A DNA stretch of 64,000 nt from Clostridia bacterium. GTDB taxonomy: Bacteria; Bacillota; Clostridia; Christensenellales; Borkfalkiaceae. Under the pieces are notes generated by a model. That model did not search any database, was not told where the DNA came from, and saw only the letters and a list, made by a program, of their open reading frames with translations. The stretch covers positions 1 through 64,000 of the forward strand of contig JAFWBP010000013.1 of the NCBI GenBank assembly GCA_017507045.1, in the 5' to 3' direction. A program made the translations under genes and the position numbers. Below are positions 9,364 through 15,683 of this stretch, in pieces. Positions within the stretch are counted from its first letter, which is position 1; the number at the start of each line of letters is the position of its first letter.

Positions 9364-9396
9364 AGCGCCCGAACGCTTGCTTTGCGTTCGGGCGCT
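9364..9396 (+). terminator. Bidirectional terminator between groEL and the phosphonate operon
   Basis: Thirteen-base-pair stem AGCGCCCGAACGC (9364-9376) / complement (9384-9396) with a seven-base loop, followed on the plus strand by TTCATTTTCTTTTTT. It sits between convergent groEL and the 9410-10135 gene and probably ends both transcripts. Confidence 0.85.
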
Positions 9397-9409: not shown

Positions 9410-10135
9410 TTATAGTTCTTTGCGGTATTTCAGCTCGCCGCGCATAAGGCGCGCTTCGGCGGCAAAAAGTTCTTCCGGCGTATCGATCTCCACGAGGCTC
9501 CCCTCTTGCACGGGATGCACCAAAAGGTTGAGTGCGGAAAGATTTTCGTTCACGACGTCGTCCCAAAAGAGCTGCTCTGCACCTCCCCCTTCGAAGCGGC
9601 GGGCGATCGCCTCTGCGAGGATCTTCCCCTCCTGCGCTTTGAGGTAGGCGATACCAACCATATTGTAAAGGTCTTTTCCCCCTTTTCCAACGCGCGTGAT
9701 AAAGCCCCGTGCATCGCGTTCGAATACCCAGTCCTCCGAGCGGCCGGGCGTGAATCTGCCGAAGTAGCAGGAATGCTCTAATTGTGCCGTGAAGATGGTG
9801 GGATCGGCAACGAAGAGATCTGCCTCGCACACGAAGCAATCCCCTGCTTTGAGCAGTTCGCGCGCCACGTACACCGAGGAGATATTATTGACGGTGGCGT
9901 AGTATGGATTTTCAACGATGCGCACGGCGGGATATTTTTGGGCAAGCGGCTGAAATTGCTCGCCAAGATACCCCACCACGACAGCGATCTCCTGCACGCC
10001 GCGAAGAAGCAGCCCTTCGATCACCGTTTCGATCATCGGTTTTTTTCCTACGGGAATGAGCGGCTTGGGCGTTTTTTCGGTGAGCGGACGCATGCGACTC
10101 CCCAGCCCGGAGGCCATTAAAATGGCGCGTTCCAT
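9410..10135 (-). CDS. Nucleotidyltransferase, probable CTP:2-aminoethylphosphonate cytidylyltransferase
   Basis: The 241-residue protein has the sugar-nucleotidyltransferase signature MASGLGSRMRPLTEKTPKPLIPVG at its start, as in LicC (CTP:phosphocholine cytidylyltransferase) and PntC. Downstream it has EADLF for metal and nucleotide binding and DDVVNENL near residue 195. It is the last gene of the operon that makes AEP. Cytidylyl activation of AEP by PntC-type enzymes is established for bacterial phosphonate pathways, so the likely reaction is AEP + CTP to CMP-AEP, the donor for LicD. A phosphocholine or sugar phosphate substrate cannot be excluded from sequence. Its start overlaps the aepX stop by one base (TAATG). 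Confidence 0.8.
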   Translation of the reverse strand: MERAILMASGLGSRMRPLTEKTPKPLIPVGKKPMIETVIEGLLLRGVQEIAVVVGYLGEQFQPLAQKYPAVRIVENPYYATVNNISSVYVARELLKAGDCFVCEADLFVADPTIFTAQLEHSCYFGRFTPGRSEDWVFERDARGFITRVGKGGKDLYNMVGIAYLKAQEGKILAEAIARRFEGGGAEQLFWDDVVNENLSALNLLVHPVQEGSLVEIDTPEELFAAEARLMRGELKYRKEL

Positions 10136-11430
10136 TAAAGCTCCTCGATGAGGCGGATGATATCCTTAATGGACATCAGGCGGGAATCTACCTCTTTTGC
10201 CCTGTGATAGCGCAAAATATCGCGCGCCGTTTCTTCCATGGCGGGGAAGGCGCTGCGGGTGAGTTGGTTCGCATAGATCACGATGTTTACGCCGTGCGCG
10301 GCAAGTTCCGCCTCGGTAACCGAATTAAAGGAGGTGGGAACGACGACGATAGGCGTAATTTTATCCTCTCTGCGGAAGGCATCGCAGAAGGCGAAGATCT
10401 CATCGGGCTGTTTTTTGCGGCTGTGGATCATGATGCCGTCTGCCCCCGCCTTTACGTATGCACGCGCACGTGTGAGCGCATCCTCCATGCCCTGCTCAAG
10501 AATGAGGCTCTCGATGCGCGCGATGATCATGAAATCCTCGGTGAGCTGAATACGCTTGCCTGCCGCAATTTTCTCGCAGAAGTGCTCGATGGTATCCTGC
10601 GTCTGCTCCACCTCAACGCCGAAGAGGGAGTTCTTTTTAAGCCCCACTTTATCCTCGATGATCACGGCGGAAACCCCCATGCGCTCGAGGGAACGAACGG
10701 TGTACACGAAGTGCTCGGTGAGACCGCCCGTATCGCCATCAAAGATGATGGGCTTCGTGGTAACTTCCATTACGTCGTCGATCGTTCTTAAGCGGGAAGT
10801 GAGATCAACGAGTTCGATATCGGGCTTGCCCTTTGCCGTGGAATCGCAGAGCGAACTGATCCACATGGCATCAAACTGATCGTATTCCCCCTCGTGCTCA
10901 ACGACGGTTTTTTCCGCGATTAAGCCCGTAAGTCCGCTATGTACTTCCAGGGTTTTCACTACGGGGCGCAGGGAAAGGAGCTTTTTCAGCCGTCCGCGCC
11001 GAAGCTCAGGCATAGCGAGCTTTTCCTTGTTGCGAAGATCGATTCTGCGCACCGCCTCGTTATAGGTGTACGGCACATCGATAATCTCTCCGCCGAAAAC
11101 GGAGAGCAATTTTTCCACGTTATCGCGGATCGCCTTCATGGGGCTACGCTTCCAGTTATCGCCGTGGATCACGTAATCGGGGCGAAGCGTTTCGATCATC
11201 TTATCGTACATTACTTCCTCTTGTACGACGACGCGGCTCACCCCTTCAATTTCGCGCACCATACGGAGGCGCTCCTCAAAGGAGACGCTGGGAAAGCGGT
11301 TGAAGCGCACCATCGCCTCATCGCTGAGCACGCCTACGGTAACTTCTCCGTACTTCCTCGCCTCGCGAATGATGTTGAGGTGCCCCTCGTGAATAACGCT
11401 CGTGCAAAAACAGGTGTAAACGGTTTTCAT
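10135..11430 (-). CDS. aepX: Phosphoenolpyruvate mutase with N-terminal cytidylyltransferase-like domain
   Basis: Converts phosphoenolpyruvate to phosphonopyruvate, forming the C-P bond. Of 431 residues, about 1-130 form a cytidylyltransferase-like domain with the HxGH motif (VIHEGHLNII) and YVIHGDNWK. Residues about 140-430 are the PEP mutase barrel of the isocitrate lyase superfamily, with DGDTGG and the mutase signature EDKVGLKKNSLF, whose KxNS separates mutases from lyases. The start at 11430 follows AGAGGAAGCAT and overlaps the upstream aminotransferase stop (ATGA). The substrate of the N-terminal domain is unknown; two-domain PEP mutases of this kind do occur in surface phosphonate clusters. 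Confidence 0.9.
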   Translation of the reverse strand: MKTVYTCFCTSVIHEGHLNIIREARKYGEVTVGVLSDEAMVRFNRFPSVSFEERLRMVREIEGVSRVVVQEEVMYDKMIETLRPDYVIHGDNWKRSPMKAIRDNVEKLLSVFGGEIIDVPYTYNEAVRRIDLRNKEKLAMPELRRGRLKKLLSLRPVVKTLEVHSGLTGLIAEKTVVEHEGEYDQFDAMWISSLCDSTAKGKPDIELVDLTSRLRTIDDVMEVTTKPIIFDGDTGGLTEHFVYTVRSLERMGVSAVIIEDKVGLKKNSLFGVEVEQTQDTIEHFCEKIAAGKRIQLTEDFMIIARIESLILEQGMEDALTRARAYVKAGADGIMIHSRKKQPDEIFAFCDAFRREDKITPIVVVPTSFNSVTEAELAAHGVNIVIYANQLTRSAFPAMEETARDILRYHRAKEVDSRLMSIKDIIRLIEEL

Positions 11431-12578
11431 ATGCTTCCTCTGATCGTTTCCTGGTTGTAGCGGACGGGAATCTGCACGCCGCAAACGTTAAGCGCCTCGC
11501 GGAATACCTTGAAAAACGCTTGGATATCTTCTTCGTCGATCGCGCCGAGCGCGCATAGGCGGAAGGTATTCGTAGTAGAAACCTTGCCGGGATAGATGGT
11601 GAAGCCGCGCTCGTAGCAATAATCGTGTACCTTTTCAAAATCCCATTTGGGATCATCCGGATAGATCGCCGAAGCAACGAGCCCTGCCTGCAGCTCGCGG
11701 CGGATCAATTCGCAAAAACCCAGCTCCTCTAGCCCACGGTGAATTGCTTCCATCACGCGCGTATGCCGCGCCCACTTCTCCTCTTCGCCCTCGGCGAAGT
11801 ATTCTTTGAGCGCCTGCATTGTTGCGTAAATCGTTTGCACGGGCGGCGTGAAATGCATTTCGCCCGTCTTTTCAAAGTATTCGTACTGCAGATAGAGGTT
11901 GCAATAGTAGGAACGCTTGGGGTAGTTTTTGGATTTTTCGATCTCCGCTTTGTTTCCGATGATGAAGGAAAGCCCCGTCATTGCCGTAAGCCCCTTTTGC
12001 GCGGATGCCATGCAGAAATCCACGTTTTCGCGCTCAATATCAATGGGGCGCATGGCGAGCGTGGAGGTGGTATCCACGGTGAATATCGCGCCGTACTTAT
12101 GTGCCAGCGCGCCGATCTCGCGAATGGGATTCAAAAGCCCGGTGCCCGTTTCGTTGTGCGTGGTGTGCACGAGCGCGATATCGGGGTTCGCCTGCAAAAC
12201 CTCTTCCACGGCGGCAAGATCGGGCTGCTCATCTACGGGAAATTTGAGGTCGATAAAATCCAGCCCGTAATATGCGCAGATCTCTGCGGCTCGTGTGCTG
12301 TAAGCGCCGTTGTTCACAATGAGCGCCTTTTTGCCTGCAGGGAGCAGGGAATTGAGGCAAACATCGATATTCACCGTGCCCGAACCGCAAAAGAGCACCG
12401 ATGTGTACTTCGCGGGATCGGCGTGCACGATCTTCAATAAATCTGCCCGAAGCCCCTTCATCATGGAGGCGAATTCCTTTTCGCGCGGGCAGATATCGGG
12501 AACGATCTGTGCCAGCTTCACGGAATCCGTGGTGGTGGAAGGGCCGGGGTTCAACAGGATATTTCTCTTGATTTGCAT
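11427..12578 (-). CDS. aepZ: 2-aminoethylphosphonate aminotransferase (PhnW/AepZ type)
   Basis: PLP enzyme of the class V aminotransferase fold, 383 residues. It opens with LLNPGPSTTTDSVKLAQ, typical of the 2-aminoethylphosphonate-pyruvate transaminase family. It has the PLP-phosphate loop CGSGTVNIDVCLNSL and the Schiff-base lysine in MASAQKGLTAM near residue 194. In catabolism PhnW removes the amino group from AEP; next to aepX and aepY it should run in the other direction, making AEP from phosphonoacetaldehyde. It lies four bases after aepY and shares an ATGA overlap with aepX. Confidence 0.88.
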   Translation of the reverse strand: MQIKRNILLNPGPSTTTDSVKLAQIVPDICPREKEFASMMKGLRADLLKIVHADPAKYTSVLFCGSGTVNIDVCLNSLLPAGKKALIVNNGAYSTRAAEICAYYGLDFIDLKFPVDEQPDLAAVEEVLQANPDIALVHTTHNETGTGLLNPIREIGALAHKYGAIFTVDTTSTLAMRPIDIERENVDFCMASAQKGLTAMTGLSFIIGNKAEIEKSKNYPKRSYYCNLYLQYEYFEKTGEMHFTPPVQTIYATMQALKEYFAEGEEEKWARHTRVMEAIHRGLEELGFCELIRRELQAGLVASAIYPDDPKWDFEKVHDYCYERGFTIYPGKVSTTNTFRLCALGAIDEEDIQAFFKVFREALNVCGVQIPVRYNQETIRGSI

Positions 12579-12582
12579 AATT

Positions 12583-13722
12583 TTACCCTAAATTTTTAAG
12601 ATATTCCATAAAATCCGCCTTGTTCTGACGCGCCGTAGTAGTGGGGCGGCCGAGATCCTTGCGGGAGAAGAGGTTTGCGCGCGCTTCCAAGAAGGTGAGT
12701 TGATTGCTATTTTGGGCGATGCGAAGCGCCTCGTTTAGCTCTTCGTAGGTTTCTGCCCGCAATACGAGCGGATAGCCACAGCCCTCCGCAATCTTTGCAA
12801 GATCCACCTTGCCGATCGCCGTAGGCATGCCGCCCACCGTTTCATGAGCGCCGTTGTTTACGACGACGTGCACGAAATTATTCGGCTTTCGCGCACCGAC
12901 GACGGCCATCGCGCCCATGTGCATGAGCACCGCGCCATCTCCATCAACGCACCACACCCGCACGTTTGGTTTTTCAAGTGCGATGCCGAGCGCGATCGAG
13001 GAGGCGTGCCCCATGGAGCCAACGGTGAGGAAATCCATGCCGTGCCCTTCGCCACGCTTTTCGCGAATTTCAAACAGCTCGCGCGAAGCTTTTCCCGTGG
13101 TGGAAACGATGGGATCTCCCCCACTCGCCTCGGCTATGAGCCGCACGATCTCCTCACGCACCATCGCGTTTTCGCTCGCGTAAGTGGGCGTGAACTCCCC
13201 CTCTAGCGCTCCCTTTTTTATTACGATCGCCGCGCATTTTCCTTCCTTTGCGAGCGCACACGCGCGCGCGATAAAGGCGGAAAGCTCCTCAATTGAGGTG
13301 GTTTTGGAAAGCACGGTATGCTCGATCTCCAAAAGCTCCAAAAGGCGTTCGGTGATAACGCCTTGATAGATGTGTTGCGGCTCATCATGCACGCCCGGTT
13401 CTCCTCGCCAGCCCACGAGAAAGAGGCTGGGAACGGCGTAAACCTGCTCGTGCAGAAGGGATGCCGCAGGATTTACGATATTGCCCTCTCCGCTGTTTTG
13501 CATGTAAACGACGGGCACTTTTCCCGTTGCGAGATGATAGCCCGCAGCGATTGCCGCCGCGTTGCCCTCGTTCGCCGCAACAACGTGCCGTTTCCCCTCC
13601 GTGCCGAAGGTTGCAAAGAGTGCATCGCACAGCGGTTTTAAGAGGGAATCAGGCACTCCCGTAAAGAAGGGCTCGTTGCTCGTAAGCGGTTCTAAAATAC
13701 GAAAAAATTCGGAAATTTTCAT
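12583..13722 (-). CDS. aepY: Phosphonopyruvate decarboxylase
   Basis: Thiamine-diphosphate enzyme that decarboxylates phosphonopyruvate to phosphonoacetaldehyde, pulling the unfavourable PEP mutase reaction forward. The 379 residues are the usual length for this short ThDP family. The N-terminal Pyr domain contains NEGNAAAIAAGYHLATGK with the activating Glu. The C-terminal PP domain has the cofactor motif starting GDGAVLMHMGAM and ending in VVNNGAHETVGG (about residues 255-290). It lies 22 bases after the dehydrogenase gene and 4 bases before aepZ. Confidence 0.93.
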   Translation of the reverse strand: MKISEFFRILEPLTSNEPFFTGVPDSLLKPLCDALFATFGTEGKRHVVAANEGNAAAIAAGYHLATGKVPVVYMQNSGEGNIVNPAASLLHEQVYAVPSLFLVGWRGEPGVHDEPQHIYQGVITERLLELLEIEHTVLSKTTSIEELSAFIARACALAKEGKCAAIVIKKGALEGEFTPTYASENAMVREEIVRLIAEASGGDPIVSTTGKASRELFEIREKRGEGHGMDFLTVGSMGHASSIALGIALEKPNVRVWCVDGDGAVLMHMGAMAVVGARKPNNFVHVVVNNGAHETVGGMPTAIGKVDLAKIAEGCGYPLVLRAETYEELNEALRIAQNSNQLTFLEARANLFSRKDLGRPTTTARQNKADFMEYLKNLG

Positions 13723-13744: not shown

Positions 13745-14818
13745 TCATTGAGAATAGAACTTGATAAATTCCGCTTTGCTGAAAATCGCATAATCGGAAA
13801 AACGGAATTTCCTGTGCGGCCCTACGATCGCTTCGTACCAACCGTAAACTTCCTCCATGGCGGAGCTTTCTGCTCCTGCAAATGCGGCGATTTGCTGCAG
13901 AATCGCCAACCCGTAAGGGAAGTCTGCCGTGAAATAACGGGAATTGAAATCGGGAATATACCCCCCCTCCACTTCTACGTATGGTGTTTGGATACCGCGA
14001 AAGCTCGCAATGCTTCTGATCTTTTGCGTGAGTGCTTCGGGCGTTGCGCTTTCGTAATGCTCCTTCAAAGAGCGCACGGCGGTGAGATCGAATTCTCCAA
14101 GCAAGCGGCAGAGGTTTTGCACCTCGCCGTCGCAAGCAAAGAGACATTTTGAGGATTCATCGCTCCACTCCTCGTAAAAGAGCGGAATTTGGGAATATTT
14201 CTTCCCCGTACGGTAATCCGCAAACAGCGTTTTAAGGCGCGTAGTATGCAGAATGGGATTAGAGGGCGTGAGCGTTACGTTGAGATAGCCGGGAAGCGCT
14301 TCGCAACGCATGGAAAGCAGCTCTTCCACGAGCCTTCTGCATCGCTCTATTTCTTTGTTCGGCAGAGCCGCAACGTGAAGCTTTTCGCGATATCCGGATG
14401 CACATACAGTGCGGCCGTACTCTTTGAGACGCGCCACCGATGGCACGCGTTGTAGCCCAAACAATACGCAGCCGCGCGCAAGCGCCCCGCGAAAAACGCA
14501 TTCCATACCCCCCGTTCCGGGAATAAGACCGATCAGCGTTCCGGCATGAAGTTTGGGAACAATCTGCTCTGCTACGCGCTCTGCCATGAACGAAGGCGTC
14601 GTTACGAAGATGAGCTCCGCTTTGGCGAAAATATTTTCATCGTCGGTTGCGCAAACGGCGCCGCGGCGGAGCACTTCTCCTCGCTCGTTCACAATGGAAA
14701 GCTCGCTAGAAAACTCTTGCGGTTTGGAGGTGAAAATCGTAACGGCGTGCCCCTTTTCCGCGCAGTGTACCGCAAACTGCGTGCCCACATTTCCGCCTCC
14801 GACAATTGCGATATTCAT
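13745..14818 (-). CDS. Opine (octopine/nopaline)-dehydrogenase-family protein
   Basis: The 357-residue protein starts with a Rossmann nucleotide-binding motif, MNIAIVGGGNVGTQFAVHCAEKGH. The C-terminal half fits the octopine/nopaline dehydrogenase domain, with LTPSNPILHTTRL near residue 185 carrying the His expected in the catalytic region. Family members reductively join an amino group to an alpha-keto acid using NAD(P)H. It sits between licD and aepY in the AEP operon, which suggests it acts on AEP, phosphonopyruvate or a related intermediate. An N-carboxyalkyl-AEP product is possible but purely inferred. The family call is good; substrate and product are unknown. Confidence 0.75.
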   Translation of the reverse strand: MNIAIVGGGNVGTQFAVHCAEKGHAVTIFTSKPQEFSSELSIVNERGEVLRRGAVCATDDENIFAKAELIFVTTPSFMAERVAEQIVPKLHAGTLIGLIPGTGGMECVFRGALARGCVLFGLQRVPSVARLKEYGRTVCASGYREKLHVAALPNKEIERCRRLVEELLSMRCEALPGYLNVTLTPSNPILHTTRLKTLFADYRTGKKYSQIPLFYEEWSDESSKCLFACDGEVQNLCRLLGEFDLTAVRSLKEHYESATPEALTQKIRSIASFRGIQTPYVEVEGGYIPDFNSRYFTADFPYGLAILQQIAAFAGAESSAMEEVYGWYEAIVGPHRKFRFSDYAIFSKAEFIKFYSQ

Positions 14819-14819
14819 A

Positions 14820-15683
14820 TTATAGTTCCTCGCGTAAAAAAGCTTTTACACAGTGCGTCTGCCGCTTATCCTCGGGCGGAATCTGCATATAATCGCCGTA
14901 AATTCTGCGCAGCCATATATCGTAATCGGCAATCACACGGAAGGATTTATCCTCGAAAGGCACGTCGATATACTCCTCGAAGCTCGCACGCGGCATCTTC
15001 CACTTTGCCTGGCAATAGCAAAATACGCCGCAATCCCCGTGCGCTTCGTAGGCATGCCTTTGCGCATTTTCGCGCGCCTTTTTCGCGGCGCGGTGCGCAC
15101 CGTACACCGTAGCGAAGAGGTAGACGGGAAAACCGAACACGCGCAGTAGCACGCTCCACTTACTCTCAAGCGTATACCAAAGAGCAAGCACGTTAAGCGC
15201 GTTATAGCGAAGGCGGCGCTTATAGATCTTTTCCATTGATTTTTCATCAGTGGGCGCACCGTCTAACGGGAAGATATCGATGAAGAGATACGGCACTTCC
15301 TTATGCGAATGGCTGCGAACGGAAAAGCGATCGTCCATGAGTTTTAAAAAGGGATAAAGTGCCTTCTTGCCACGATCTTCCGAGAGAAGGAAATGCTCGG
15401 AAAAAGTGATCATCCCCTCTTTTACGAGCGCATAAAACTTCTCGTAATCGGGGCGAGGCATTACAACGTCTACGTCATCATCCCACGGAATGAACCCCTT
15501 ATGGCGAATGGCGCCGATGAGAGTGCCGTATGCAAGTGAATATTTTAAATCGTGCTCTCTGCAAACGCGATCGAACTCCGTGAGAATGCCGAGCAGCGCA
15601 GTATGTACTTCATTTAGCGTAAGGTATGCCACGCATAGTACCTCGTAAAATGTTCTAAAACGGTTTTTCGCTCCCATTTTCAC
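14820..15683 (-). CDS. licD: LicD-family phosphotransferase
   Basis: LicD enzymes move phosphocholine or similar groups from a CDP/CMP donor onto teichoic acid or other surface glycans. The diagnostic block is near residue 50: AYGTLIGAIRHKGFIPWDDDVDV, with the DDD metal site, followed by MPRPDYEKFYALV. Here the donor is probably CMP-AEP made by the same operon. The start is uncertain. GTG at 15683 (287 residues) follows AAGGG; GTG at 15632 (270 residues, MAYLTLNEVHTALL) follows GAGG and fits the usual LicD start better. The second start codon is the centre of palindromic motif copy 2. First gene of the operon, 88 bases behind ftsZ. Confidence 0.9.
   Translation of the reverse strand: MKMGAKNRFRTFYEVLCVAYLTLNEVHTALLGILTEFDRVCREHDLKYSLAYGTLIGAIRHKGFIPWDDDVDVVMPRPDYEKFYALVKEGMITFSEHFLLSEDRGKKALYPFLKLMDDRFSVRSHSHKEVPYLFIDIFPLDGAPTDEKSMEKIYKRRLRYNALNVLALWYTLESKWSVLLRVFGFPVYLFATVYGAHRAAKKARENAQRHAYEAHGDCGVFCYCQAKWKMPRASFEEYIDVPFEDKSFRVIADYDIWLRRIYGDYMQIPPEDKRQTHCVKAFLREEL
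15620..15642 (+). repeat. Palindromic motif, copy 2 (5' region of licD)
   Basis: Arms TAAGGTATGC and GCATAGTACC around CAC. TATGC-CAC-GCATA is a perfect inner palindrome. The centre codon reads GTG on the licD strand, and the outer flank supplies GAGG upstream of it. Confidence 0.75.

Follow-up and report, generated by a model that had tools for sequence, protein, structure and literature searches.

In a 64,000-nucleotide stretch of DNA from a Clostridia bacterium (hereafter the window), a gene resembling those of opine dehydrogenases lies among genes for 2-aminoethylphosphonate (AEP), which raises the question of what such an enzyme would do in a phosphonate operon. The open reading frame (13745-14818, minus strand) starts with ATG and runs for 357 codons with no internal stop, and it is the single copy of this gene in the window's genome. 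The original prediction of an opine-dehydrogenase-like product was borne out. Residues 176-331 match Octopine_DH (PF02317; E=3.2e-26, 92.6 bits against a Pfam cut-off of 30), and this C-terminal domain follows an N-terminal Rossmann half that matches ApbA/F420_oxidored in Pfam, as in members of the Octopine_DH superfamily. By sequence, the nearest solved proteins are the Pecten octopine dehydrogenase (3c7a, 2.5e-19) and N-(1-D-carboxylethyl)-L-norvaline dehydrogenase (CENDH; 1bg6, 4.4e-5). None of the NCBIfam models passed its cut-off, and ketopantoate reductase (PanE, TIGR00745) scored 35.9 bits, under the curated cut-off of 141. An AlphaFold model built with 34 relatives (mean pLDDT 96) matched the folds 3iqd, 3c7d and 1bg6 in Foldseek, where octopine dehydrogenase and CENDH came first and staphylopine-type and ketopantoate-type enzymes ranked lower. 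Sequence and modelled fold place the protein, called ODH here, within the opine dehydrogenase superfamily; its activity is predicted.

Octopine dehydrogenase from Pecten maximus (3c7a/3c7d/3iqd) resembles ODH in its two-domain fold, His-Asp dyad and arginine sensor, at 21-22% identity in the fold comparison. It shares the NAD(P)H-binding N-terminus and condenses an amine with a 2-oxo acid reductively, the reaction predicted for ODH, but its amine is arginine whereas that predicted for ODH is a 2-aminoethyl phosph(on)ate. CENDH is of similar length and gives the best TM-score (0.80) at 19% identity; it acts on amino acids and, to our knowledge, has no surface-glycan context. The staphylopine and pseudopaline dehydrogenases are longer (~430 aa, against 357 aa for ODH) and superpose at an rmsd of 6.5-8.4 Å, and no metallophore genes occur among the ODH neighbours examined.

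The catalytic residues are conserved. H191, R294 and D299 of ODH align with H212, R324 and D329 of octopine dehydrogenase, the last of which we take to be its catalytic aspartate. Both D299 and R294 are found in 34 of the 34 aligned members and H191 in 32 of 34, so that the His-Asp dyad and the NADH-sensing arginine are retained across the subfamily. Octopine dehydrogenase employs a His-Asp relay with Arg324 as NADH sensor, its His212 touches the carboxylate of arginine, and agmatine, an amine lacking that carboxylate, is rejected (PMC2924402); to accept an amine that has no alpha-carboxylate, the active site would have to be altered. Two further arginines, R124 and R194, the latter three residues from the catalytic His191, are invariant in all 34 aligned ODHs and are also present in G665 and G686, from the window's genus, at positions where octopine dehydrogenase has Thr and Ile. 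The outgroup proteins L040 and L041, with no head-group genes among their visible neighbours, do not have them. Both arginines are also missing from L039 (G537), which adjoins a different cytidylyltransferase fusion and probably acts on another substrate. This distribution makes R124 and R194 candidate phosph(on)ate-binding residues. Coenzyme preference could not be read from the beta2 loop, where T30 and S31 are conserved and residue 32 is variable, and the attempt was dropped.

The placement of ODH inside a phosphonate operon was likewise upheld, since 1 nt separates it from the preceding licD and 22 nt from the following ppd, and its neighbours exceed curated cut-offs. Behind ftsZ, the order is licD-ODH-ppd-aepT-aepX-NTP (NTP being a nucleotidyltransferase gene), with all genes on the same strand and either overlapping slightly or separated by no more than 22 nt. 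The first gene, licD (14820-15683, minus strand; Pfam LicD 2.4e-45), encodes a LicD-family phosphocholine-type transferase predicted to attach the head group to a glycan of the cell surface; its true start probably lies some 20 codons into the listed frame, which opens with GTG, because homology begins at residue 20. After ODH come the phosphonopyruvate decarboxylase gene ppd (12583-13722, minus; TIGR03297, 442.7 bits, cut-off 312.5) and the 2-aminoethylphosphonate transaminase gene aepT (11427-12578, minus; TIGR03301, 457 bits, cut-off 361). Next is aepX (10135-11484, minus; TIGR02320, 413.8 bits, cut-off 319.6), a PEP mutase (PepM) with an N-terminal PF01467 cytidylyltransferase-like domain (CTP_transf_like, 2.8e-13). 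Its listed start, a TTG, gives an overlap of 58 nt with aepT; the ATG that opens MKTVYTCF, some 17 codons further downstream and near 11433, is probably the conserved one. The last gene (9410-10135, minus; NTP_transf_3, 1e-12) encodes a LicC/PntC-like nucleotidyltransferase, whose best solved relatives are LicC (1jyk, 3.6e-34) and PntC (6pd1, 1.5e-14) and whose predicted product is a CMP-activated head group. In the interval between the operon end and groEL, a two-way terminator-like hairpin (9364-9396, no strand assigned) consists of 13 base pairs flanked on either side by T-rich tails; the scan overall yielded no more hairpins than shuffled sequence.

The translation of aepX contains EDKVGLKKNS, an instance of the PEP-mutase motif EDKXXXXXNS (PMC6697681). 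With this PEP mutase, Ppd, AEP transaminase, a cytidylyltransferase and LicD all present, the operon has the composition of an AEP surface-tailoring (Pnt) operon. It shares with the Pnt pathway a PF01467-fused PepM, the AEP genes, a LicC/PntC-like cytidylyltransferase and LicD, and differs in adding a predicted imine-reducing tailoring step; the main text of the PntC paper mentions neither opines nor any dehydrogenase (PMC6697681).

The same ftsZ-linked locus varies within the window's genus in a way that narrows the role of ODH. Among 103 genomes of this genus, ODH is found in only 3, a protein of the ornithine-cyclodeaminase family (OCD) in 1, and PepM in 8. The window and G686 share the order licD-ODH-ppd-aepT-aepX-NTP. 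In G665, whose licD and ODH products are 68% and 64% identical to those of the window, licD-ODH is followed directly by a cytidylyltransferase/CobD-like fusion and then by groEL as in the window; PepM was not found in this genome, an assembly that is 83% complete. G117 has licD-OCD-ppd-aepT-aepX-NTP, then groEL. The AEP module occurs with neither ODH nor OCD in G042 and G092, so AEP can evidently be formed without ODH. In G692 the version is of the hydroxyethylphosphonate (HEP) type, which has no amine; an iron alcohol dehydrogenase is present and both reductases are missing. A 139-aa open reading frame occupies the licD-ppd gap of G092 (L054:5214-5633), the position of ODH or OCD in other genomes. 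At this locus, then, the supply module can change while ODH is kept, and the reductase can change while the supply module is kept.

OCD resembles pyrroline-carboxylate reductase, alanine dehydrogenase and SbnB, which act on a C=N bond next to a carboxylate, and by analogy it is predicted to perform a comparable imine reduction in ODH's place. In G025 and G023, from the family that includes the window's genus, OCD follows the fusion, the usual position of ODH. The two reductases are neighbours in L003, L024 and G537 (with OCD beside ODH at L003, L024:7189-7908 and L061:8780-9754), where they may differ in stereochemistry or serve a second substrate; the OCD product is perhaps of opposite configuration to that of ODH. 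The common denominator is a 2-aminoethyl phosph(on)ate together with imine-type reduction, not phosphonopyruvate or phosphonoacetaldehyde, and reductive N-alkylation of the head group is therefore favoured over a reaction on either of these intermediates.

GTDB genomes were scanned with the ODH sequence alone, so that gene neighbourhoods played no part in the selection. The scan found 35 ODH loci, most of them sharing 43-56% identity with the window protein. Their distribution over lineages is patchy: gut and rumen Bacillota predominate, joined by one spirochaete, one melainabacterium and a planctomycete bin. Cultured carriers include Bullifex porci and Lachnospiraceae XPB1003, the latter with PepM in its genome as well. 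ODH adjoins a fusion of ~600 aa in 22 of 36 loci (the 35 scanned plus the family member G064); the fusion joins a LicC-like nucleotidyltransferase at its N-terminus to a class I PLP domain at its C-terminus. Three other ODH loci (L009, L014 and L024) carry a LicC/choline-ethanolamine-kinase fusion, and four (L005, L031, L032 and L034) lack head-group genes nearby, in genomes with neither PepM nor the fusion. Against a phylum-wide background sample, unmatched for gut habitat or lineage and hence giving overstated Fisher p-values for a contrast that is still large, the fusion occurs in 23 of 35 ODH genomes and 0 of 249 background genomes (2e-25), and PepM in 11 of 35 ODH genomes and 7 of 248 others (4e-7).

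The PLP domain of the fusion points to the head group supplied in these loci. CobD was its top-scoring family (1e-51), and among PDB entries the threonine-phosphate-decarboxylase-like protein 6oux (3e-45) scored above CobD 1lc5 (1.6e-28) and HisC proteins. We take 6oux to be SMUL_1544, presumably the source of ethanolamine phosphate for norcobamides, and we assume a tie to phosphoserine decarboxylase. SMUL_1544 is a threonine-phosphate-decarboxylase-like enzyme linked to the synthesis of norcobamides, whose linker is ethanolamine. Because its PLP domain is nearest to CobD and 6oux, and in light of that linker, the fusion is predicted to make phosphoethanolamine and CDP-ethanolamine, leading from phosphoserine to CDP-ethanolamine in a single protein; aminopropanol phosphate or serinol phosphate are possible alternative products. 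Its layout parallels that of the PntC-AEP transaminase fusion, with a PLP domain of a different class. The fusion lies at L007:6169-8001 and in about 20 other loci, and also at L090:6381-8195 and L086:8163-9986.

A phosphonate is thus not the main association of ODH, although linkage to phosphonate genes recurs elsewhere, the point on which the original prediction could have failed. Besides G686 and the PepM enrichment above, L030 has an independent operon, licD-ODH-(YidC/sulfatase)-TagF-aepX-aepT-NTP. The ODH of the window and that of L030 are placed apart in the ODH tree, where starred branches force two changes, an indication that ODH and AEP supply came together on at least two occasions. 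In L027 and L028, ODH adjoins genes of the TagF and YidC/sulfatase types, paralogues of which each genome also carries inside its AEP operon. ODH or OCD is present in 4 of 13 AEP-type clusters (ODH in the window, G686 and L030; OCD in G117) and 0 of 7 HEP-type clusters, numbers too small for a stand-alone test. The HEP-type clusters L058, L059, L060, L079, L081, L082 and L098 have an iron alcohol dehydrogenase instead of ODH. Genes for proteins of ~880-960 aa, in which a 60KD_IMP domain of the YidC type is fused to one of the sulfatase/LtaS type, repeatedly neighbour TagF-type genes at AEP and ODH loci (L030:9225-11990, L027:10750-13524, L075:4688-7582, L078:9789-12437).

Taken with this genomic context, on which the substrate assignment is based, ODH probably catalyses the NAD(P)H-dependent condensation of the AEP amino group with a 2-oxo acid and the reduction of the imine to a secondary amine. 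A related reaction is known from tauropine dehydrogenase, an invertebrate enzyme of anaerobic metabolism that joins taurine, the sulfonate analogue of AEP and likewise devoid of an alpha-carboxylate, to pyruvate. In the window, PepM, Ppd and AepT would produce AEP, ODH would attach a carboxyalkyl group before or after CMP activation, the LicC/PntC-like enzyme would form the CMP ester, and LicD would move the head group onto a surface glycan; in the fusion-bearing loci, the same ODH subfamily would modify phosphoethanolamine likewise. Of the parts of this proposal, the keto acid is the one of which we are least sure. Pyruvate is the most likely partner, yielding N-(1-carboxyethyl)-AEP, because carboxyethyl and opine precedents exist in O-antigens: N-[(R)-1-carboxyethyl]ethanolamine phosphate in Proteus O-polysaccharides, the phosphate ester counterpart of the predicted phosphonate (PMC9630907), and alanine and lysine opines in Providencia (PMC10609480).

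More tentatively, we propose that the ODH subfamily builds an N-(1-carboxyalkyl)-2-aminoethylphosphonate surface head group, interchangeably with OCD and across both the phosphonate and phosphoethanolamine pathways of gut bacteria, a statement to which we give slightly less than even weight. The likely result of ODH action is a surface decoration of a new kind. If so, a reductive N-alkylation step would be added to an otherwise known AEP surface-tailoring pathway, with a phosphonate opine as product; opine chemistry joined to AEP was not found in the literature searched. The subfamily would also be a candidate for the enzyme that makes N-(1-carboxyethyl)ethanolamine phosphate in Proteus, for which, as for carboxyethyl O-antigens generally, the literature searched gave no relevant biosynthetic gene. 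The added carboxylate would place more negative charge on a zwitterionic head group, which should alter the appearance of gut bacteria to host lectins, antibodies and phages.

Four other roles for ODH were weighed against this reductive N-alkylation of the head group. It is unlikely that ODH forms an opine from another amine, such as an amino acid of the surface polymer or free alanine or lysine, ODH then being housed with the head-group genes only because both decorate one polymer. Such opines do occur in enterobacterial O-antigens (PMC10609480), and the few ODH loci lacking head-group genes would suit this role, but ODH directly adjoins genes that specifically supply 2-aminoethyl phosph(on)ates or choline/ethanolamine-type phosphates, and its subfamily-specific arginines suit a dianionic substrate.

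Known opine dehydrogenases serve redox balance or metal uptake, and the patchy spread of ODH over lineages would fit an enzyme making a free opine for such ends that entered the operon by chance; the strong and repeated linkage to head-group genes, together with the fold rank of the staphylopine and pseudopaline dehydrogenases, far below octopine dehydrogenase and CENDH, renders this improbable. It is, if anything, a shade more improbable that ODH works oxidatively in salvage or editing, stripping an N-carboxyalkyl group to leave plain AEP as the final head group. Opine dehydrogenases are generally reversible, and the OCD family, which alternates with ODH, includes by family match SbnB, an enzyme that works in the oxidative direction. 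Against this stand an operon with no transporter or catabolic genes, the position of ODH between licD and biosynthetic genes, and the AEP operons of G042 and G092 that manage with no ODH.

Most doubtful of all is a role as carbonyl reductase that would convert phosphonoacetaldehyde or phosphonopyruvate to hydroxyethylphosphonate or phosphonolactate: both intermediates occur in the operon and the Rossmann domain is also ketopantoate-reductase-like, but the C-terminal domain is Octopine_DH, AepT is retained in the window, most close homologues lie in loci devoid of such intermediates beside the predicted CDP-ethanolamine enzyme, G665 keeps licD-ODH with the whole phosphonate module replaced by the fusion, and HEP-type clusters use the iron alcohol dehydrogenase. 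The last two observations led us to reject it. Of the three reactions first envisaged for ODH, formation of an N-(1-carboxyalkyl)-AEP is thus supported by genomic context, while reduction of an aldehyde or keto intermediate and further processing of phosphonopyruvate are disfavoured.

A further phosphonate cluster recurs at L055:8278-14368, L056:100-6165, L074:6872-12975 and L078:3610-9784, with no AEP transaminase or iron alcohol dehydrogenase. It comprises genes for PepM, Ppd, a phosphoesterase, an epimerase and a DUF6564 protein with a nucleotidyltransferase-like N-terminus, along with a weakly saccharopine-dehydrogenase-like protein of 386-399 aa, and possibly represents another imine-reducing head-group pathway.
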